21,618 bases of DNA from an archaeon (GTDB lineage: Archaea; Hydrothermarchaeota; Hydrothermarchaeia; JALTZZ01; JALUTC01): the NCBI GenBank assembly GCA_027051265.1, contig JALTZH010000048.1, forward strand, positions 1 through 21,618, read 5' to 3'. Under the pieces are notes generated by a model. The model was not told the origin of the DNA. It saw nothing but the letters and a program-made list of their open reading frames with translations, and searched no databases. This document shows positions 10,578 to 19,374 of the stretch, piece by piece. The position numbers were made by a program, and so were the translations under genes. Each line of letters opens with the position of its first letter. The stretch's first letter is position 1.

Positions 10578-13218
10578 AATAATATAACCTTCTAATAACA
10601 AGAATTATAACTATAATCAAACCGACTACGAATGCAAGTAAATATTTGTTAAAAATTTTCCTTTTTTGAATAACGGTTTTATTTGTAGGTACCTTTATGT
10701 ATGGTGTTTTTGTTTTCTTTGATATATTTACTTTTGGAACTTTTTTAGTTGGAGTATAAACTGTTAAATTTAAGTTTTTCTTTAGTTCTAGTTCAAAGTT
10801 TTTTATGTAAGCTATTGCTTCAAGACTCATGTTTTTAGTAGCTTTTACGTTAAATGAACCTCTTACACTATCTCCTGGATTTAATCTAAACGTAAACGTC
10901 TTATTTAAATTGATGAATTTCAAATCGATATCACAATAGACATCACCAACATTTTTTAACGTATAAATGATCGTAACCTGTTTTTTATCGGTTAAAGTCA
11001 CGTTTGTTTTTTTTGTCTCGTTAAAGAATACATCAAATAACAATTTTGGATATTTTCCGGTTACATTTATTTTGAAAGGTACTTGTTTATAAAGATTTTC
11101 ACCAATGATTTCTAAAATATTCCTAAATACACCATAGTAAAACGGTTTCAATTCATGATACAATATAATTTTTTCGTTTGGTTTAATAGTTAGCTTAACA
11201 GTTCTACTTCCATTAATAACTTGTACCAATTTATCAAAAATGTAGTTTAATAAAAATGTTCCTGTTCTATTTCCGTTGTTTTCAACAACCGTTATTAGTT
11301 TAACTTTATATCCAAGAGGAATCTCTACATAATTTTTCTTTGTTTTTTCGAAATATAATTTTATTGATAAATTTGCTTCTTCGAAAAGTATATATCTAGC
11401 GATGTCTAACGTATATGGACATAAGAATTCGTAAACGTTGTTATAGCCATCTTTAGCATGAATTATAGTAGTAATGTTATATACTCCTTTCTCAGGAATA
11501 AAAAACGTTATATCTATAGGAGGAGTCTCAGTTACAGTATCGGGATTTAATTCATCAAGTTTTAACGTTACATAACTAGTACCTATCATTGCTCTTCCAG
11601 TATAATCTTTAACTATAAATTTCTCTGGATATTTTAGTTCCATCCATATCTCCTTAGCTGTAAGAGGTCCTTCATTTGATATTGAAATCTTTAGATTAAA
11701 AAGATATCCTTTAATTTTAGGATCATAAACGATCGAATAACTAGGAATACATCTAATATACAATCCAACATATATTTTTAATTTTCGTTCAACTTTTTCA
11801 TATCTGTTATAATATTCATCATAATATATTAGAGTTAAGACGAGTGAGTATTCACCGTAGCTTCTAAACGTATAAATTATCTCATTAGAAATTTTTTCAT
11901 TTGGATATATATATTCTAAATTTATATTTTTTGATGATAGAACATGTTGTGTAGCATTTAATATTGAAAGTTGTATTGAAATATTTTTTAAGACAACATT
12001 TCCAGCGTAATGTATAATCGTTTTAAACTTATAAGATTTATTTATGTTCAATTTTATAGCTTTGATTTTTTCTTTCTCCAACTCTTTTAGATAGATATCG
12101 TTTATATAGTAATCAACATCAAAAGCTATTTTTCGAACCTTTTTAAATTTTATTGTTATTGGTTTAGATTCAATGAAAAATTCTCTCTCAATACATTTAT
12201 CAATAACCCTAACCTTTAGTTTTTGTGTGAATTCTATTTCATTACTCGAGGTTATTAAATAGGATAACACGATCTCATCAATTCGATTAACATCACCTGA
12301 GAATTCGTTATCACCTATAACAGATATAACGGAAGGATATTCATTTTCAACAAGCATTTTGTATCCTTTCTTACAGGTTCCTCTTATATATATGGTATCA
12401 GTAATTCGTACTTTTTCATTTGGTTCAGCATATTCTTTAGGTTTATTCCTTTCAAAATCCCACGGGTATGTAATATTTCTAAAAATCTTTACATCTACAC
12501 CACCGATAATTTCTATAGGTATACTTATACTTTGATAATCTTTTCTTAGCTTATTTGTAGCTAAATTTATGTACTCATAATATACTCCTAAAACAATTTC
12601 CGATTTTGTTGTATTTATAATACCTCCCAATTTAAAATGAAATCTAATTTTTTCTTCCCTACAACTTGGATATAATGTTGATATAAAATCTGTTGGTTCA
12701 ATTAATTCAAGAGTTATAAACTTATCATAAATTGGTTTAATACTTATATTCTTAGCATTGAGATAACCGCAATTCCTTATAAACAAATCAACGTAAAACT
12801 TTTCGTAAGAATAAAGTTTTGATTTTTCAATTTCATACCTTAAAAATATCGAAGGCCTTTTTTCCAATATTATTTCAACCGTAGATACTTTACCAACAGC
12901 TGAATACGAAACGTGTTTTATCTTTATACTATCATCTATAGAGTATTGATCACCTTCATTCAATATAAGACTTGAAGGCAAGAGTTGCTCTCCGTTTAGA
13001 TAAATATAAAATTCGTTATATCTTTTTGTTTTGTTCACACTCAATATACTGTTACCCCAAGGGATTAAAAATCCTTTTCCATCTTCGATTAGACATTCGT
13101 ACTGAACAAACCCCCATTCGGTATCATTACTTGGAATTAAAGATTTAATCGTACATGTTTCTGCTTCAATTGTGTATAGAAAAATCATTGATACTAAAAG
13201 CAAATATATTTTATTCAT
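10576..13218 (-). CDS. Large secreted, C-terminally anchored repeat-domain protein (COG1361-like)
   Basis: An 880-residue extracytoplasmic protein. Residues 1-19 are a Sec signal peptide (MNKIYLLLVSMIFLYTIEA). The C-terminus is a membrane helix (about 859-875, YLLAFVVGLIIVIILVI) closed by RRLYY, so the bulk lies outside the cell. The body is rich in beta-strand patterns and consists of recurring modules built around phrases like VRNCGYLNAKNISIKP, YAGNVVLKNISIQL, SNEGPLTAKEIWMELK, ENNGNRTGTFLLNY and KNVGDVYCDI. These match the CARDB/COG1361 type of archaeal surface adhesive domains. Many N-x-S/T sequons suggest glycosylation. Its start overlaps the end of the Lon-like protease gene by 8 bases, so the two are translated together. 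The function is unknown: S-layer-associated or a substrate/partner of the protease are inferences. Confidence 0.75.
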   Translation of the reverse strand: MNKIYLLLVSMIFLYTIEAETCTIKSLIPSNDTEWGFVQYECLIEDGKGFLIPWGNSILSVNKTKRYNEFYIYLNGEQLLPSSLILNEGDQYSIDDSIKIKHVSYSAVGKVSTVEIILEKRPSIFLRYEIEKSKLYSYEKFYVDLFIRNCGYLNAKNISIKPIYDKFITLELIEPTDFISTLYPSCREEKIRFHFKLGGIINTTKSEIVLGVYYEYINLATNKLRKDYQSISIPIEIIGGVDVKIFRNITYPWDFERNKPKEYAEPNEKVRITDTIYIRGTCKKGYKMLVENEYPSVISVIGDNEFSGDVNRIDEIVLSYLITSSNEIEFTQKLKVRVIDKCIEREFFIESKPITIKFKKVRKIAFDVDYYINDIYLKELEKEKIKAIKLNINKSYKFKTIIHYAGNVVLKNISIQLSILNATQHVLSSKNINLEYIYPNEKISNEIIYTFRSYGEYSLVLTLIYYDEYYNRYEKVERKLKIYVGLYIRCIPSYSIVYDPKIKGYLFNLKISISNEGPLTAKEIWMELKYPEKFIVKDYTGRAMIGTSYVTLKLDELNPDTVTETPPIDITFFIPEKGVYNITTIIHAKDGYNNVYEFLCPYTLDIARYILFEEANLSIKLYFEKTKKNYVEIPLGYKVKLITVVENNGNRTGTFLLNYIFDKLVQVINGSRTVKLTIKPNEKIILYHELKPFYYGVFRNILEIIGENLYKQVPFKINVTGKYPKLLFDVFFNETKKTNVTLTDKKQVTIIYTLKNVGDVYCDIDLKFINLNKTFTFRLNPGDSVRGSFNVKATKNMSLEAIAYIKNFELELKKNLNLTVYTPTKKVPKVNISKKTKTPYIKVPTNKTVIQKRKIFNKYLLAFVVGLIIVIILVIRRLYY

Positions 13219-13912
13219 ATAATATAATTGGAATTATTTCAACAAGATTTTTAGCACGAATTATTCTGATATCATGTTTTTCAAATGGTTTGTTTTGATG
13301 AGGAATTATAACAGTTTTAAATCCATTATCTTTTGCAACTCTTATCTTCTTATCAACATCATATATCGGTAGAAGATCACCGTTGAGATTAATCTCTCCA
13401 GTCACTATTATATCGTCCTTTAAAGATTTGTTTAAAACTAATGCAATACATGCCAACGCAACCATTGCCGATGCACTCTTTCCATCTAAAATATAATTGG
13501 TATTATTTGTATAGAATACGATACCAAGTTTTTTTCCCGTGAATTTTTCACAAAATCTTATAGCAATTTTTACTCCCTGTTGAAATCTTATGGTATACAA
13601 ATTTTTATCAACATTAATAAACAAACCATCGTGTTTAGATATTGCAATCTTAACATTTAGGACAGAATCTTTCGATAAAATATAAAAGTTTAAGCTCCTT
13701 TCTTTAGAAAAATTTGAACACGTATAAATATTTGTGATATTATAAGTTATATTATAAAATATATATGTAATATTTTTATATAAATTTGTAACATTTTTAG
13801 GATTCGATATTTTTGTTTCAGATATGTTTTGGACTTTAAGAAAAATTATTGAATTGGTAAGAATAATTATTATCGTTAAAAGTATAAATGTATAATTAAA
13901 TAATTTTTTCAT
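13211..13912 (-). CDS. Membrane-anchored Lon-domain (S16) protease, COG1750-like
   Basis: A 233-residue protein with an N-terminal membrane anchor (about 8-27, TFILLTIIIILTNSIIFL), a spacer rich in N-x-T sequons and a C-terminal Lon protease domain without ATPase. Catalytic Ser146 lies in LDGKSASAMVAL and Lys189 in YDVDKKIRVAKDNGFKTVIIP. Their spacing of 43 residues equals that between Ser679 and Lys722 of E. coli Lon, and VTGEINLNGDLLPI between them is typical. The motif is GKSASA rather than GPSAGA. The Lon domain is predicted outside the membrane. The gene is the first of a two-gene operon with the large surface protein. It begins 12 bases downstream of a CRISPR-repeat-like leader unit and has no obvious Shine-Dalgarno. 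The substrate is unknown. Confidence 0.8.
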   Translation of the reverse strand: MKKLFNYTFILLTIIIILTNSIIFLKVQNISETKISNPKNVTNLYKNITYIFYNITYNITNIYTCSNFSKERSLNFYILSKDSVLNVKIAISKHDGLFINVDKNLYTIRFQQGVKIAIRFCEKFTGKKLGIVFYTNNTNYILDGKSASAMVALACIALVLNKSLKDDIIVTGEINLNGDLLPIYDVDKKIRVAKDNGFKTVIIPHQNKPFEKHDIRIIRAKNLVEIIPIILYE

Positions 13913-13924
13913 AAATATAATAAT

Positions 13925-14100
13925 CTTTCAATACTACCTTTCAATACTACAAGTATAATTTAAAACCTATATCATTCCCGAACTTAAGTATTTCGAGTCA
14001 CAAAATATATATATAGATAAAAAAATGAGGAAAAAATGCAAATAATTATTAAATAATTAAATATTAAAAGTTATTTCATTCTTATAAGTCTTAACTTCTT
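13925..14100 (-). repeat. CRISPR leader-repeat-like unit, copy 1 (no spacers)
   Basis: Minus strand order: AT-rich leader-like segment, TATA-like box (14004-14015), a weak dyad (13977-13997), then a 29-base unit at 13938-13966 that starts GTTTTAAATTATAC and ends GTAGTATTGAAAG. ATTGAAAG ends are typical of archaeal CRISPR repeats, and the unit folds into a 5-bp hairpin with wobble pairs. The last 13 bases (GTAGTATTGAAAG) are repeated once more in tandem at 13925-13937. There is no spacer: the Lon-like protease gene starts 12 bases later. A second copy of the same unit is at 19200-19345, with 28 of 29 repeat bases and most of the leader conserved. It may be a collapsed CRISPR array or a promoter/5' UTR derived from one. 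Confidence 0.5.
14004..14015 (-). promoter_or_regulatory. TATA-like box in leader copy 1
   Basis: An alternating AT box about 100 bases upstream of the Lon-like protease start, conserved at the matching place in copy 2 (19267-19278). The predicted transcript would start near 13983, within the dyad, and run through the repeat-like unit into the protease gene. Confidence 0.4.
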
Positions 14101-14109
14101 GATCCTCTT

Positions 14110-14136
14110 CCTCATACTAAAGTGTGAGGATTTCTT
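14110..14136 (-). repeat. TnpB-tail-like hairpin, copy C
   Basis: On the plus strand CCTCATAC (14110-14117), loop TAAA, GTGTGAGG (14122-14129) is an 8-bp stem with one G-T pair. Read on the minus strand with its flank it is AAGAAATCCTCACACTTTAG, the form of the hairpin at the end of many IS200/IS605-type elements. It lies just upstream of leader copy 1, in the same relative place as copy B beside leader copy 2. Confidence 0.4.
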
Positions 14137-14234
14137 GTGGTGAGGTTTGTAGTCAACTGTTAAAGGAAATGCTATAGTTTGAGAATTGGATTTAGATCTG
14201 TTGATGATATCTGATAAATTTTAAGCTTAATAGA

Positions 14235-14630
14235 ATGAAAGGTTCATATATATTAATAATCTTTCTTAAAGAGGATAGGGTAATAGATGTAGGAAAGCTC
14301 GGAAGATTTCTCTTTCCAAAAGGATATTATGCATACGTAGGATCTGCAATGAACAGCATTGAAAAAAGAATCGAGAGATATTTAAGAAGAGATAAAAAAC
14401 TGAAGTGGCATATAGATTATCTACTCTTATATGGAAAGGTTGTTTATGTTTTTAAGATTCCGAGCGAAAAGAAGATAGAATGCAGGGTTGCAAGAAAGAT
14501 AGAGAGTATCGGCAGAATTGTTGCCAAGAAGTTTGGTTCAACAGATTGCAATTGTAGATCACACTTATTTTACTTTTCCTATGACCCTAAGAATAATATT
14601 TCCAACATGCTTAACGATATTCAGCTGTAA
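14235..14630 (+). CDS. DUF123 / GIY-YIG domain protein
   Basis: A 131-residue stand-alone DUF123 protein, part of the GIY-YIG nuclease superfamily and sometimes fused to endonuclease III. Key sequence is FPKGYYAYVGSAMNSIEKRIERYL (about 28-51, the YVG half of GIY-YIG with its arginine helix), KKLKWHIDYLL (about 55-65) and the closing DCNCRSHLFYFSYDP. Length is normal for free-standing members. It has no clear ribosome site before ATG 14235, so leaderless expression is possible. It overlaps, tail to tail, a possible small minus-strand ORF. Substrate is unknown; structure-specific DNA cleavage is an inference from the fold. Confidence 0.85.
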   Translation: MKGSYILIIFLKEDRVIDVGKLGRFLFPKGYYAYVGSAMNSIEKRIERYLRRDKKLKWHIDYLLLYGKVVYVFKIPSEKKIECRVARKIESIGRIVAKKFGSTDCNCRSHLFYFSYDPKNNISNMLNDIQL

Positions 14631-14784
14631 GAATTTTTCTCATTTCCTCCGAAATTTTAATATCTATACTCTTTAACCTTAAAAAGCTCCTCTTTCCTTG
14701 CAATAAAATTTCCTCTATGATCATCATCCTCTTTTCCACTCTTATCTGAATTTCTTTTTTCCTTATACTTTCAGTTTCTTTCAC
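14611..14784 (-). CDS. Possible small charged protein (57 aa)
   Basis: A GTG-started reading frame giving 57 residues, beginning MKETESIRKKEIQIRVEK and ending SEEMRKILTAEYR. Composition is protein-like (amphipathic, many K/E/R, no stop for 58 codons in AT-rich DNA). It overlaps the 3' end of the DUF123 gene by 20 bases. There is no good ribosome site, and TTAAATATTACTTAA about 50-65 bases upstream could be a TATA box. I do not recognise a family. It could also be a fragment of a longer gene. Confidence 0.35.
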   Translation of the reverse strand: MKETESIRKKEIQIRVEKRMMIIEEILLQGKRSFLRLKSIDIKISEEMRKILTAEYR

Positions 14785-14857
14785 ATTATTGCTGAAGAAT
14801 TACAGATTCGATGCTGTTTTTGATTTAAGTAATATTTAAGCATGAAAAGAAGTGTTA

Positions 14858-15024
14858 AAATATTTTTGCTTTGCTGCAACTTAAACAACGAGTCATGAGT
14901 TTTCCAGCACATTTTCGTAACGATTAAAAAGGAGCGTGAAATTCAACTAAAATTGAACATAGCCTTTCATCTTTATTAAGTCTCTTCTTTTTGTTTTTAA
15001 ATTTGCAACAAAGCAAAATATTTA
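14858..15024. repeat. Inverted-repeat pair X (about 22 bp arms)
   Basis: AAATATTTTTGCTTTGCTGC (from 14858 to 14880 including AAC) is matched in inverse orientation by TTGCAACAAAGCAAAATATT (15003-15024) with one mismatch and one missing A. The 122-base interior has no open frame of note. The inner end touches pair Y. The shape is that of a small non-autonomous (MITE-like) element. Confidence 0.5.
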
Positions 15025-15154
15025 CCTTAGCTCCCATCAAAAGCAATAGGGTTGAAAGTATAAAAGTTCGTTGGATATGAGCAACGAAGATATGTTCGAT
15101 GATAAAGTTATAACAACTATCGTTCACGTTACCTTTTGATGGGAACTAAGGTAA
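15022..15154. repeat. Inverted-repeat pair Y (22 bp arms), MITE-like
   Basis: TTACCTTAGCTCCCATCAAA (arm 15022-15043) and its inverse at 15133-15154 match at 21 of 22 positions, enclosing 89 bases. The interior has a TATA-like box and a 20-codon open frame that stops inside the right arm. No clear target-site duplication was found. The arms are far longer than chance allows in 133 bases. Either a miniature transposable element or a hairpin-forming RNA would fit. Confidence 0.6.
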
Positions 15155-15256
15155 TATTTTTTATTAACATTCTATGATGCTATATAACGTGGAAAAAGTA
15201 GTAACGTTGAAAATATACTTTGTTTAATTTAATTACGTTTGTTAACATTACAACTT

Positions 15257-15408
15257 ATGTATAAGCTAAATGATGAAGCTCTCACGATAAAAGAAGATGG
15301 AAAAAAACTTTTCAGCGTTGCTGATCATTACTTAATGTTGATGATGCTACTTTGAGGAGAGAACGACTATTAAAGATATATATGGAGGAAAGTTTCGATG
15401 AAATATAG
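15257..15408 (+). pseudogene. Broken small gene (frameshifted)
   Basis: Two reading frames join into one protein-like sequence: MYKLNDEALTIKEDGKKLFS... from 15257 stops at 15353-15355, and the adjoining frame from about 15343 continues DATLRRERLLKIYMEESFDE to a stop at 15406-15408. That stop overlaps the start of the next broken gene (15398), as real operon genes do. One frameshift near 15340-15350 would repair it. The family is not recognised. The coding nature is inferred from composition and the operon-like overlap. Confidence 0.4.
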
Positions 15409-16206
15409 AGACATGGTATCTAAACTCTTTGGGCTTGGTTTTGGTACGATTATATATTATTTCGCATTATCAAAGCATAACATCATACTTTACTTGATTT
15501 CCTTTACAATTCTAGGATTGTTTCTCTACGTTGTTCTACCTAAATCAAAACTGCTTGCAACGGCAACAATAGTTCATATGGATTTGTTAAGTATCTTTGT
15601 AGCTTTATCCGTAGTATTATCTTCGATATTATCACGTTGGATTTCTTTAGCAGCAATCTTGCCTTCAATACTTATCTCCGCAGGTATCGTTGTTAACATT
15701 GGTCTTTTTCTCTAAGGATAAACCTTTTTTACCAACGACAACAATAGCATCGATAGCTTTATTAATTGGATTAACTATTTTATTTTTCTCCTTAGAATTA
15801 TTTATATCACCATCAATCTTGTTCCATGATACTTATATGGTATGCGTTGGCATGTTCTGGGGTTTTATTTTAACCATAGCTTCAAGTTATTCGTTATTCC
15901 TCTATTTTACCGGACAGACTTGAAGCACGAGTATATATCACGGAGATTATGTTGAGAAAGCAAGAAATATCGTTATCGATTTACTTAAAAATATAAATGT
16001 TAAATATACGATAAATATAAAAAAGTTCCCCACATTATCCTATGAATTTAAGATTTATTGGTGGAGATGTCATTCCTAGAAAGATTGGTGAACCAGGTTT
16101 AATCATTCTAATTTCTCCAGGACCTAAGAAAGCGTCTCTGGATTTGAAGAAACTAGTTATAGATTTGCTTCGTCAACTTAACTTACTAACCGTTGATTGG
16201 GAGTAG
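15398..16206 (+). pseudogene. Decayed polytopic membrane protein gene
   Basis: Frame 1 (15398-15715) encodes about four membrane helices and ends after VVNIGLFL. A one-base shift in the CTTTTTCTC tract near 15700-15712 continues into SKDKPFLPTTTIASIALLIG and two more helices, ending at an in-frame TGA (15921-15923). The same frame then reads on as a soluble segment (HGDYVEKARNIVIDLLKNIN...). A second shift near 16056 leads into IGGDVIPRKIGEPGLIILIS and the final stop at 16204-16206. Repaired, it would be about 269 residues: six helices plus a C-terminal cytosolic or external domain. I do not recognise the family. Three independent lesions favour a true pseudogene over a sequencing error. Confidence 0.65.
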
Positions 16207-16390
16207 GATGGTTTTAAATTTGAATTGTTTAGGAATTTGAAACGTTTTAGTATAAGAATTTTTGAAAAAATTTTGAAACGATGTAAGTTTTACAAAAGAT
16301 AAATCAAGCCTCACCTTTAAAAGTGGGTTCAACGCAGTTTTAAAATTAAGAAATATTTAATAAGAAACATAAAATAACATTATAGAAAAA
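16207..16390. other. Intergenic stretch between pseudogene and IS fragment
   Basis: Contains the TnpB-tail-like hairpin D and a short open frame (NLKRFSIRIFEKILKRCKFY, then KR and a stop) that may be a further gene fragment. Nothing intact is seen. Confidence 0.4.
16306..16327 (+). repeat. TnpB-tail-like hairpin, copy D
   Basis: AAGCCTCACCTTTAAAAGTG followed by GG forms CTCAC/GTGGG around an AT loop and can be read QASPLKVG, resembling the end of IS200/IS605-type TnpB genes. It is the only copy in the plus orientation and lies 64 bases before the IS607-like tnpA fragment. A competing frame (TKDKSSLTFKSGFNAVLKLR) is also open here. Confidence 0.35.
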
Positions 16391-16479
16391 TTGTATCGGA
16401 TTAAGGAAGCTGCAGAAATATTGGGAGTACATTCAAAAACTTTATAGGGATGGGTTTGGTCAGAAATGTATGATGTTGC
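16391..16479 (+). pseudogene. IS607-type tnpA (serine resolvase) N-terminal fragment
   Basis: The frame from TTG 16391 reads LYRIKEAAEILGVHSKTL, then TAG (16445-16447), then GWVWSEMYDVA. This is the N-terminal MerR-like helix-turn-helix that opens IS607-family TnpA (for example YRxxEAAxxLGVSxxTLxRW). The stop stands where a tryptophan or arginine is normal, and the catalytic serine-recombinase domain is missing. It is therefore a dead remnant, with no tnpB body between it and the GC-rich stretch that follows. Confidence 0.55.
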
Positions 16480-16516
16480 ATTTTTTAATATTATAATTAA
16501 AAATTAAATAATGAAA

Positions 16517-16948
16517 AACCTCTTACCTTCTACTCAATATGTGAGAAAAAACTAAGCACAAAGGGCAGAGGTTTGTAAAGACATATGTGGAGAGCCCCTG
16601 TTCCTTTTTCAAAAGCCTGTCAATGAAACCCAAGACGGGAAAACACTCCATAAAAGTAGCGGAGAGTCAGAACAAATACGTAAGGTTAGCTAAATGGGAT
16701 GATAGATGAAAATATTTATTAATGTTGATCAATTTAATAGTTTAGCCAGTCGCCAGGTTGATAAGCTTGATTCTAACGACCTAACCACTAAGCAGATGTA
16801 TATCGTGTAAGTAGTTCCGCCACGGTTATGGTGGGTAAGAGTAGAGGTAGCATGAACTCATCTATTGAGTAAGGCACTCATAAGAGTGTAAACCCTCACG
16901 AAGTCCATTCATAAGGAGTTATTCATAACTGAGCAAAAAATTTTTTTA
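16517..16948 (+). ncRNA. GC-rich, hairpin-rich stretch: candidate structured RNA or element relic
   Basis: About 430 bases clearly richer in G+C than all surroundings, a known mark of structured RNA in AT-rich thermophiles. Pairings visible by eye: AACCTCT/AGAGGTT (16517-16523 with 16567-16573), GGTTAG/CTAACC (16684 with about 16780), CCAC/GTGG around 16820-16834, ACTC/GAGT around 16857-16869, CACTC-ATAA-GAGTG (about 16875-16888) and AGTTAT-TC-ATAACT (16917-16930). The last is followed by a T run (16941-16948), which would end transcription. I could not match it to RNase P RNA, SRP RNA, rRNA or tRNA. Its place behind a tnpA fragment suggests the guide-RNA (omegaRNA) end of an IS605/IS607-type element. 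Two reading frames are open for 40-50 codons near 16561-16709, so a tnpB tail is also possible. Strand is inferred from the terminal T run. Confidence 0.4.
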
Positions 16949-17044
16949 TTATCAATTTTTATATTATTTAAAATATATAAAAGAAAAACAATTTTTTTTC
17001 CTTTATTCCTCATTAAAAAGATCGAATAACCTCTAGCTTTAGAG

Positions 17045-17587
17045 TTAGTCGTCAGGTGTTTCTATTTGATATCCACATTTTCTAAGATATTTTAAGTCTT
17101 TTTCTGTATCTATATCAATTAATGATGAATCAATAAAAACGTTCTTATATTTTCCGCATGGTTTTTTAAACAACGATAATCCAACGAGTCCATGTTTTGT
17201 TACCAATGTATAAACATCATAATTCGTGCTAAAAGATTCTTGAAGAAAGTTAAACAACGTATCTCTTTCATTTTTTAGATTAAAAATATCTGAAGCTACA
17301 ACCAGTAATGGCGTTCCTATAATTTTGATACAAATGTTTAAATCTCTTATATAATTTTCACCCGTTGTATATATAATTTTATACTTCTTCTTGATACAAT
17401 GTTTTATAGTTTTTGGAACATATTTTGATACAGAAACATATATGTTATTGGATATTTCCTTTAATGCATCATAAATTATATCAATGAGATAAACATTATT
17501 AATCTTTATCATAGCTTTCTCCTTGTAACCAATTCTTGAACCTTTGCCTCCGGACATTATCAAAGAGTTTATCTTATTGGGAAGCAT
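17045..17587 (-). CDS. cobY: Adenosylcobinamide-phosphate guanylyltransferase, CobY-like
   Basis: Nucleotidyltransferase of the MobA/GlmU fold, 180 residues. The GTP-binding opening is SLIMSGGKGSRIGYKEKAMI (9-28). Further matches to archaeal CobY (as I recall the Methanocaldococcus protein) are YLIDIIYDAL, NNIYVSVSKYVPKT, GENYIRDLNICI, PLLVVASDIFNL and the closing IDTEKDLKYL. CobY transfers GMP to adenosylcobinamide phosphate in archaeal cobamide synthesis. It is slightly shorter than usual between the SDIFNL and GLVGLSLF segments. It overlaps the end of tatC by 14 bases and is the last gene of the tat operon. Other archaeal NTP transferases of this size (MobA) are the alternative. Confidence 0.7.
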   Translation of the reverse strand: MLPNKINSLIMSGGKGSRIGYKEKAMIKINNVYLIDIIYDALKEISNNIYVSVSKYVPKTIKHCIKKKYKIIYTTGENYIRDLNICIKIIGTPLLVVASDIFNLKNERDTLFNFLQESFSTNYDVYTLVTKHGLVGLSLFKKPCGKYKNVFIDSSLIDIDTEKDLKYLRKCGYQIETPDD

Positions 17588-18293
17588 GAAAAATCCTCCT
17601 TAATAATAATAAAGAAGCTTCGTATATAATGATCGTTAGAGTAGTTAATACCAACGAAACTATAAAGGAGGGTTCTGGTGAAATTATGTTAAATATAACG
17701 AAGAATATTAGATAAACAAAAATTCTATACCTTTTGAGGATGTTCACGTTTAAAATCTTATACTTTATTAATAGAGTTAAAGCAATTGGTGTTTGTAAAA
17801 TTATACAGACTAGAAAGGATATGGAAACGAGGAATTTCACGTAATTCTTAATAGACAATATTAGTTCAACTCTCTCACTTGTATATAATGAAAGGATTGT
17901 TACAGTAATTGGAATTATCAATTTCAACGAAAGAATTAAGCCAAAGATGGAAAGGAATCCTGAAGATATCAATAATCTTTTTATAAAAACTCTTTCATGT
18001 TCATATAATCCCGGTTTTGCAAAGAGATATAACTCGTATAATGCGTATGGAATTGTTAAAATTATAGATATTACAGCTGATATATAAAAAAGTGCATAAA
18101 AACCTTCAACAACAGAAAAAGCAGCGATATCTACTTTAGGAAGATAGTTCATCAACGTATTTAAAATTTTCTTACTAAAGTACAGTAAAATAACGATCAA
18201 TAAAACTACAAAGAAGATAGATATTCTAATTATACGAGATCTTAATTCTAGTATATGTTCGATTAAGGGTTTTTCTACATCTTCATTTACCAT
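17574..18293 (-). CDS. tatC: Sec-independent (Tat) translocase subunit TatC
   Basis: Six-helix membrane protein, 239 residues, forming the Tat receptor that recognises twin-arginine signals of folded proteins. Visible hallmarks: IEHILELRSRI at the N-terminus, VVEGFYALFY at about residue 64 (the conserved Glu of the first loop region), FAKPGLYEHER at about 91-101 and FNIISPEPSF near residue 205. The start at 18293 overlaps the end of the upstream small tatA-like gene by 11 bases. Its own end overlaps cobY. The presence of tat genes implies export of folded cofactor proteins. Confidence 0.92.
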   Translation of the reverse strand: MVNEDVEKPLIEHILELRSRIIRISIFFVVLLIVILLYFSKKILNTLMNYLPKVDIAAFSVVEGFYALFYISAVISIILTIPYALYELYLFAKPGLYEHERVFIKRLLISSGFLSIFGLILSLKLIIPITVTILSLYTSERVELILSIKNYVKFLVSISFLVCIILQTPIALTLLIKYKILNVNILKRYRIFVYLIFFVIFNIISPEPSFIVSLVLTTLTIIIYEASLLLLRRIFHASQ

Positions 18294-18432
18294 TCAATTC
18301 CTTTTCTATTTCTCTAACATATCGTCTATATTCTCCTACTATTTTCCCAACATATCTAGCAATCTCCGGAAGCTTCTTAGGTCCGAATAATAAGAAAAGG
18401 AGTAAGAATAGAACAATAAGCTCCTCGGTCAT
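18283..18432 (-). CDS. Second TatA/B-like protein (49 aa)
   Basis: A short gene easily overlooked: 49 residues, [20 protein letters not shown] then [19 protein letters not shown] and a charged tail. It has the TatA/B plan: short membrane helix (about 5-16), the [11 protein letters not shown] hinge (the FGxxKLPE motif) and an amphipathic helix. ATG 18432 overlaps the stop of the upstream tatA as ATGA, and its own stop lies inside the start of tatC. Having two TatA-like proteins is compatible with a TatA plus TatB division of labour. The N-terminus carries acidic residues in front of the helix (TEE) as in several TatB/TatA variants. It is shorter than most family members, with no long tail. Confidence 0.85.
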
Positions 18433-18602
18433 TTCTTCTCAGATTTTTTTTCTTCAACTTTTTCTTCTTCTTCTAATGCCTTCTTGAACTCTTTTCTAGC
18501 CTTTCCTAACGCTCTTGCTAGTTCTGGTATTTTATTAGCACCAAATAACAATATTATTATTAGGAGTATAACTAATATTTCTCCAGGACCTAATTGGAAC
18601 AT
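18429..18602 (-). CDS. tatA: Tat translocase pore subunit TatA
   Basis: 57 residues: membrane helix [17 protein letters not shown] (4-20), hinge and amphipathic helix [21 protein letters not shown] with the FGxxKIPELA motif, and a lysine/glutamate tail. It forms the Tat channel. I prefer ATG 18602 because GAGGTGAT ends 4 bases upstream; a GTG at 18611 in the same frame is part of that ribosome site. It is the first gene of tatA-tatA/B-tatC-cobY, with a 4-base ATGA overlap to the next gene. Confidence 0.92.
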
Positions 18603-18657
18603 ATTAATCACCTCTAAACTTTAGTTAAATGTTAACGATAATTGAGTATTTTAATAT

Positions 18658-19197
18658 TTATAGATTTTCACACCATCTCTTGTATAAGTTATGTTCGATA
18701 CCTAAACAATCTAGTACTCTTCCAATAATAAAATTGATGATATCATCCATATCTTTCGGTTTATGATAAAAGGCAGGCATGGCAGGTAAGATTATAGCAC
18801 CAGCTTTTGCTAGTTTGAGCATGTTTTCTAGATGTATAACGTTTAAAGGCGTTTCTCTTGGAACTATTATAAGCTTTCTTTTTTCTTTCAGCATAACATC
18901 GGCAATTCTTGTGATGTTGTTTAACGCTATTCCATTAGCTATTAGTGCAAGAGTTTTCATTGAACATGGAATTACAACCATAGCATCGAGTTTTTGTGAT
19001 CCACTTACAAAAGGTATACTGAAATCATTCTCTTTATAATATTCGAATGGTATTTTTCCGTACTCTTCTTCTATAACTTTTAAACCTGCATTTGTTATTA
19101 TACAATACGTCTCCATATTAAGTTTTTTCAAAACGTTAAATAACCTTATACCATATATGACACCACTGGCACCAGTAATTGCAACCAATACCTTCAT
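18658..19197 (-). CDS. ubiX: Flavin prenyltransferase UbiX
   Basis: Makes prenylated FMN, the cofactor of UbiD-type decarboxylases. It is a Rossmann-like flavoprotein of 179 residues. VLVAITGASGVIYGIRLF (3-20) binds the FMN phosphate. MVVIPCSMKTLALIANG, KLIIVPRETPLNVIHL and GAIILPAMPAFYHKP are diagnostic. I chose ATG 19197; a TTG 9 bases upstream in frame lies inside the CRISPR-like repeat unit and is unlikely. No UbiD is in this window. The ATG comes 2 bases after the repeat-like unit, so its 5' UTR and probably its promoter (TATA-like at 19267-19278) belong to that element. There is no visible Shine-Dalgarno. Confidence 0.93.
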   Translation of the reverse strand: MKVLVAITGASGVIYGIRLFNVLKKLNMETYCIITNAGLKVIEEEYGKIPFEYYKENDFSIPFVSGSQKLDAMVVIPCSMKTLALIANGIALNNITRIADVMLKEKRKLIIVPRETPLNVIHLENMLKLAKAGAIILPAMPAFYHKPKDMDDIINFIIGRVLDCLGIEHNLYKRWCENL

Positions 19198-19236
19198 AAC
19201 TTTCAATACTACAAGTATAGTTTAAAACCTATATCA

Positions 19237-19259
19237 TTCCCGATCCTGGGGATTGGGAA
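19237..19259. promoter_or_regulatory. Dyad symmetry between TATA box and repeat
   Basis: TTCCCGATCC (19237-19246) and GGATTGGGAA (19250-19259) pair at 9 of 10 positions, with a G-T at the sixth on the plus strand. It lies where transcription of ubiX should begin and so could be a regulator-binding site or an RNA hairpin. Copy 1 has a different, shorter dyad (CCCGAA/TTCGAG) at the same place. Confidence 0.45.
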
Positions 19260-19266
19260 CTCACAA

Positions 19267-19278
19267 AATATATATAAA
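19267..19278 (-). promoter_or_regulatory. TATA-like box in leader copy 2
   Basis: Alternating AT box, conserved in copy 1, about 75 bases before the ubiX start. The predicted transcript would begin near 19245, just ahead of the repeat-like unit. Confidence 0.4.
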
Positions 19279-19374
19279 TAAAAAAAATGAGAAAAAATGC
19301 AAATAATTAAATATTAAAAGTTACTTTTATAAATCTTAACTTGCTATTGTTCCTCCAAATCTTTATTAATTCAT

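Follow-up and report, generated by a model that had tools for sequence, protein, structure and literature searches.

Two spacerless CRISPR leader-repeat units before archaeal genes as probable members of a dispersed family

Two copies of a CRISPR-like repeat, each with a leader-like segment and each located before a gene, raise the question of what a CRISPR leader and repeat represent where no spacers follow. They are found in the window, the whole 21,618-nucleotide stretch of DNA analysed here, which is contig C48 of an archaeal MAG of 1,461,718 bases (257 contigs, 95% complete). The two 29-nt repeats are both encoded on the minus strand and differ at one of 29 bases (Table 1). The AT-rich segment behind them is conserved over approximately 120–145 bp (BLAST E = 5e-35), a similarity well above chance, and a chance repeat was therefore rejected as the origin of the pair. 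Both leaders contain a TATA-like box 46–50 bp upstream of the repeat. Each unit features a single repeat with no second repeat at spacer distance, and no spacers are present. The protease ATG lies 12 nt beyond the partial repeat that follows unit 1, and the ubiX ATG is located 2 nt past the repeat of unit 2. A TTG inside the latter repeat (19204–19206) is in frame with this ubiX ATG (19195–19197). The repeats, the conserved segment, the TATA-like box, the start-codon distances and the lack of spacers had all been described in an earlier note on this DNA and were confirmed. A search of Rfam gave no match anywhere in the window.

Table 1. Predicted features of the two leader-repeat units and their neighbouring sequences in the window
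Feature	Position	Strand	Evidence
Lon-like (S16) protease ORF, downstream of unit 1	13211–13912	-	Pfam Lon_C, E = 6e-12; ATG at 13910–13912
Additional partial repeat of 13 nt, GTAGTATTGAAAG, adjoining the end of the full unit 1 repeat	13925–13937	-	Sequence
CRISPR repeat of unit 1, GTTTTAAATTATACTTGTAGTATTGAAAG	13938–13966	-	Sequence; genome repeat search
Leader of unit 1, homologous to the C128 CRISPR array leader	13967–14055	-	Profile R1 match 13938–14055, E = 1.8e-16
Inverted repeat in the unit 1 leader, degenerate copy of TTCCCGATCCTCAGGGTCGGGAA	13975–13998	-	Alignment; pair counts
TATA box of unit 1	14006–14015	-	Sequence; unit alignment
Remnant similar to an IS607-type tnpB 3′ end, immediately upstream of the unit 1 leader	14104–14151	-	77–80% identity to C173 (tnpB C-terminal flank), C50 and C119
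ubiX-like flavoprotein ORF, downstream of unit 2	18658–19206	-	Pfam Flavoprotein, E = 2e-49; start is TTG within the repeat or ATG at 19195–19197
CRISPR repeat of unit 2, GTTTTAAACTATACTTGTAGTATTGAAAG	19200–19228	-	Sequence; genome repeat search
Leader of unit 2	19229–19316	-	Profile R1, E = 5.6e-24
Palindrome in the unit 2 leader, TTCCCAATCCCCAGGATCGGGAA	19237–19259	-	Sequence; alignment; pair counts
TATA box of unit 2	19269–19276	-	Sequence; unit alignment

The identification of these units as CRISPR leader and repeat had been made to depend on the presence of true arrays with this repeat in the genome. Such arrays were found on C128/C27, C84 and C121, with the same repeat family and a homologous leader. 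The main array starts at C128:12425 and runs on into C27, the two contigs being joined by an exact 127-bp overlap, and is composed of 29 repeats (27 perfect) and 28 spacers of 38–43 nt. All of these, including the arrays or array pieces on C84 and C121, were identified by a mismatch search of the genome. The main-array leader is 70–93% identical to the leaders of the solo units, the repeat and its orientation are alike, and the TATA box is equally placed. The genome also encodes cas1 on C117 (E = 1e-74) with a cas2-sized neighbour gene. No match to either of two Pfam models of Cas6 (PF10040 and PF01881) was obtained in this 95% complete genome, where a divergent Cas6 is possible, and the CRISPR system may therefore be partly missing or divergent. 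Processing of the units by Cas6, which the earlier note had considered, finds no support, as neither model gave a match and RNAalifold predicted no consensus RNA fold. If Cas6-type cleavage did occur at the units, RNA 5′ ends would be expected at AUUGAAAG.

Several further observations concern the arrays and the sequences around them. In one main-array spacer (C128:13405–13443, locus L045), a 23-nt stretch matches the inner repeat of the ubiX unit (window 19204–19226) exactly and is joined to GGAGGTGAGTGTATGGT, as though the spacer had been acquired from DNA in which a repeat unit precedes a gene. No source site for this spacer was found elsewhere in this genome, and its protospacer has no exact viral match. 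At its leader-side end, the C84 array (L054, 1–422) has no leader and runs directly into the middle part of a herA-like coding sequence, and this junction is either a misassembly or an insertion into the gene. A repeated motif beginning with TTCTTGCTCTGAARAG occurs upstream of the array leader and of a few units (C128:12140–12310, C50:13590–13700, C108:14006–14064 and C245:2909–2940), and may be a separate intergenic repeat or a C/D-like RNA. Besides the remnant in the window, IS607-type remnants begin at C50:13372 and C119:3051, with related sequence at C173:190–395, and an apparently intact TnpA-TnpB pair is located on C49 (L094, 2103–4038).

The units extend well beyond the window. Profile R1, built from 20 aligned units (alignment A2), identified 27 solo leader-repeat loci at the cut-off of E ≤ 1e-5 across the 1.46-Mb MAG, the main array apart, and approximately eight further loci in the same genome are weaker or consist of the repeat only. 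The two window units are two of at least 27 dispersed copies and not two special promoters. Among relatives, profile R1 is without a match in 21 further genomes from the class. The genus is represented by a single additional genome, G001 (archaeon isolate S146_metabat2_scaf2bin.220, 81% complete), which contains its own array with a related repeat and 39–44-nt spacers, one solo unit identified by profile R1, and one more repeat-like copy before psmA. A diverged leader-repeat unit of G001 at L240 (contig C139, 1183–1309) precedes small antitoxin-like and MazF-like toxin genes. No viral carrier was identified, the repeat being absent from all IMG/VR contigs; the single match of a repeat variant, to L161, a -10-box-like match in a GC-rich phage, was judged to be due to chance. 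The tree of the units is star-like with low support and gives the array leader a near-zero branch length, as would suit a master copy located at an array. The earlier note had named an ordinary intergenic repeat as the outcome that would count against its reading: the repeat is indeed intergenic, but it is built from CRISPR parts. The units very probably form a dispersed CRISPR-derived family.

Comparison with G001, which is the sole empty-site reference, provides evidence of insertion. Nine genes located behind a unit or behind the main array (truA) have orthologues in G001, and no unit is present at any of them in that genome. The gap between hdrA and the THUMP gene is 130 nt here, with the unit between them, and 20 nt in G001, whose hdrA is 93% identical. 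At the main array, eIF6 and truA are separated by a 1-nt gap in G001, whereas approximately 450 bp, the leader and the whole 29-repeat array lie between them in this genome. The eIF6-truA and THUMP genes have different neighbours in G002 and the other members of the class and are not polarised by them, so the polarity of insertion rests on G001 together with the absence of the family elsewhere. A 20-bp direct repeat with one mismatch brackets the C252 unit, its two copies adjoining precisely the beginning of the leader and the end of the repeat. This is the one clear target-site duplication among 21 units tested, the other 20 falling within the shuffled background. It is very likely that the units were inserted in this lineage specifically.

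The leader is composed, from 5′ to 3′, of an A/T tract with TTTGCATTTTTTC, a TATA box, a 23-nt palindrome (TTCCCGATCCTCAGGGTCGGGAA) and TGATATAG, after which the repeat follows. The TATAWA motif is located 46–63 bp before the repeat in 18 of the 20 aligned units, and the usual archaeal spacing would put the transcription start at the 23-nt palindrome. On one side, the resemblance among units breaks off at the final base of the repeat or close to it; on the other side, the point where it ends is variable. The unit alignments contain no terminal inverted repeats, the left and right ends being unrelated. RNAalifold did not provide a consensus RNA fold for the unit; pairing is 83% in the leader palindrome and 95% in the repeat dyad, values equally compatible with a DNA dyad and with an RNA hairpin. 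A deletion of approximately 10 nt at the leader-repeat junction is common to four units (C48:13938, the second C48 unit at 19200, C113 and C252), which suggests that the solo units have themselves been copied.

The repeat is the better conserved part of the unit. Among 14 strong solo units, divergence from the consensus is 8.0% in the repeat and 18.2% in the leader (Fisher p = 5e-7, Wilcoxon p = 4e-4). The same difference is exhibited by units that face no gene, as in C14 (leader 31%, repeat 4%), so something beyond translation keeps the repeat, with protein binding, propagation and homogenisation as the candidates. Position 16 of the repeat is A in the arrays and T in 17 of 25 solo repeats, as it is in the G001 array, and simple homogenisation by the present array is therefore unlikely. 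T16 also occurs in the degenerate repeat that closes the main array before truA, as expected if the array had grown from an older unit at this site.

A position directly before a gene start, described in the earlier note, holds for both window units and does not hold as a rule for the family: 17 of the 27 loci (approximately 63%) face a gene start and 10 do not, which is in line with the intergenic background (37 of 58 gene sides facing starts). The set tested shows no significant orientation preference, a start being faced by 21 of 30 repeat sides and by 16 of 28 leader sides, so the placement is explained by insertion between genes. The genes faced by strong units include ubiX, the Lon-like protease gene, trm56, hisB, a ttuA-like gene, and those for L18e, hdrA, THUMP and an ahbA-like product, and weaker repeat-only copies precede ribC, carS and dph6-like genes. 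Promoter-type elements upstream of unrelated genes are conserved across the family, and the TATA box in the leader makes transcription through the repeat into the gene plausible. Ahead of their conserved N-termini, trm56 and hisB offer no usable start codon other than the TTG within the repeat, and for the dph6-like gene this TTG stands where G001 has ATG. The in-repeat TTG is the only plausible start of these three genes, and exaptation of the unit as a 5′ region is likely for some copies. On balance, the units at the Lon-like protease and ubiX genes are predicted to be used as promoters.

The explanation favoured here is that the window units are probably members of a lineage-specific interspersed family in which a CRISPR leader is joined to one repeat. 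Copying and insertion at the DNA level would have generated the copies on repeated occasions, with the leader end of an array or existing copies as the source. Each insertion would bring a TATA promoter approximately 58 bp before the repeat (46–50 bp in the window units), and a unit facing a gene would drive it from a point approximately 30 nt ahead of the repeat. The repeat would then become the 5′ UTR and, in trm56, hisB and the dph6-like gene, would also provide the TTG start codon. The window units would in the same manner act as the promoters and 5′ UTRs of the Lon-like protease and ubiX genes. Cas1-Cas2 normally cuts at the repeat-spacer boundary, and the sharp end of the units at this boundary makes it a candidate mobiliser, although quite an unlikely one. 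The oldest repeat of the main array is located just before truA, and arrays may accordingly be units that later gained spacers. An extended form of this scheme, which is fairly unlikely as a whole, treats the leader-repeat units as self-standing mobile elements. The leader and first repeat would be copied from an array and inserted elsewhere, perhaps by Cas1-Cas2 at the repeat-spacer boundary, would serve host genes as promoter or start codon, and would later seed arrays through spacer uptake, such that arrays would be born from dispersed units.

Solo units could also be what remains of collapsed arrays, in which many seeded full arrays lost their spacers by recombination between the first and last repeats, leaving the leader and one repeat. 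This would account for the 13-nt partial repeats that follow the full repeat in several units (unit 1, with resembling tails in the C25, C117 and C128:2885 units), for the similar degenerate repeats in the array trailers, and for the C208 unit, which is the only one with a second repeat and has a 30-nt gap between the two. However, approximately 27 independent arrays would be needed in 1.46 Mb, with only about three surviving, and the junction deletion common to four units looks like the copying of solo units. Collapse is unlikely on this evidence and is not favoured. The units resemble a mobile repeat in their number, their location between genes and the duplication at C252, and three of them have IS607-type tnpB 3′-end remnants immediately upstream, as might be expected if the unit were a MITE-like or IS607-linked intergenic repeat used by arrays as a leader, its CRISPR likeness being secondary. 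This origin is very doubtful: the element stops exactly at the end of the CRISPR repeat, inverted termini are absent, most units are without adjoining IS sequence, and G001 has an array with a related repeat yet almost no dispersed copies.

It is highly improbable that the solo repeats are regulatory crRNA-like loci of the CreA or Cas-regulating RNA type, making guide RNAs that steer Cas proteins to genes. Constraint on the repeat where no gene is faced (C14) would agree with such a role, and guide function has been described for ectopic repeats (PMC9458426), but a regular second repeat is lacking, the window units have no adjoining toxin gene, no Cas6 was found by Pfam, and approximately 27 copies are present. 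Judged from the gene layout, the transcript after most repeats would simply be that of the adjacent gene. Guide loci of this kind would yield discrete AUUGAAAG-tagged RNAs.

The interspersed leader-repeat family preferred here can be compared with several known systems. The solo units share the repeat, its orientation and the leader with the CRISPR array of their own genome, and differ in having one repeat and no spacers and in occupying 27 loci between unrelated genes. Putative mobile promoters are near-identical promoter-bearing DNA segments upstream of unrelated genes in one genome. In the units the source is instead a CRISPR leader, the element ends in a CRISPR repeat, and promoter activity is putative. 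The term for mobile promoters or promoter propagation occurs in PMC9208149 and PMC8049555. The non-canonical Cbp1 sites of Sulfolobales are 21-bp ChIP binding motifs, often located in IS110 transposons; like the units they are repeat-like motifs outside arrays, some near promoters or mobile elements, whereas here entire leader-repeat units are dispersed (PMC10883916). CreTA and other ectopic repeats also consist of one or two chromosomal CRISPR repeats outside arrays (PMC9458426, PMC8501985), but the window units have neither a toxin-antitoxin gene nor a guide-like spacer between repeats, and the family exhibits a high copy number and housekeeping neighbours. The solitary repeat units known as Racr, with a single CRISPR repeat and no spacers, belong to viral genomes and function as anti-CRISPR RNAs (PMC10651486), whereas the units described here are located in the host chromosome and include a leader. 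A literature search, which covered only part of the subscription literature, found no description of such a leader-repeat family.

To our knowledge, little is understood of how new CRISPR arrays originate at new chromosomal sites. A single genome here features spacerless leader-repeat units and real arrays that are similarly placed, and its sister genome has the empty sites. The birth of an array from a dispersed leader-repeat seed and the domestication of CRISPR parts as promoters thereby become directly testable. The family also calls for caution elsewhere, as lone CRISPR repeats outside arrays can belong to an interspersed family and not to guide loci. The findings suggest that parts of a CRISPR locus can disperse within a genome in the manner of a small mobile element.
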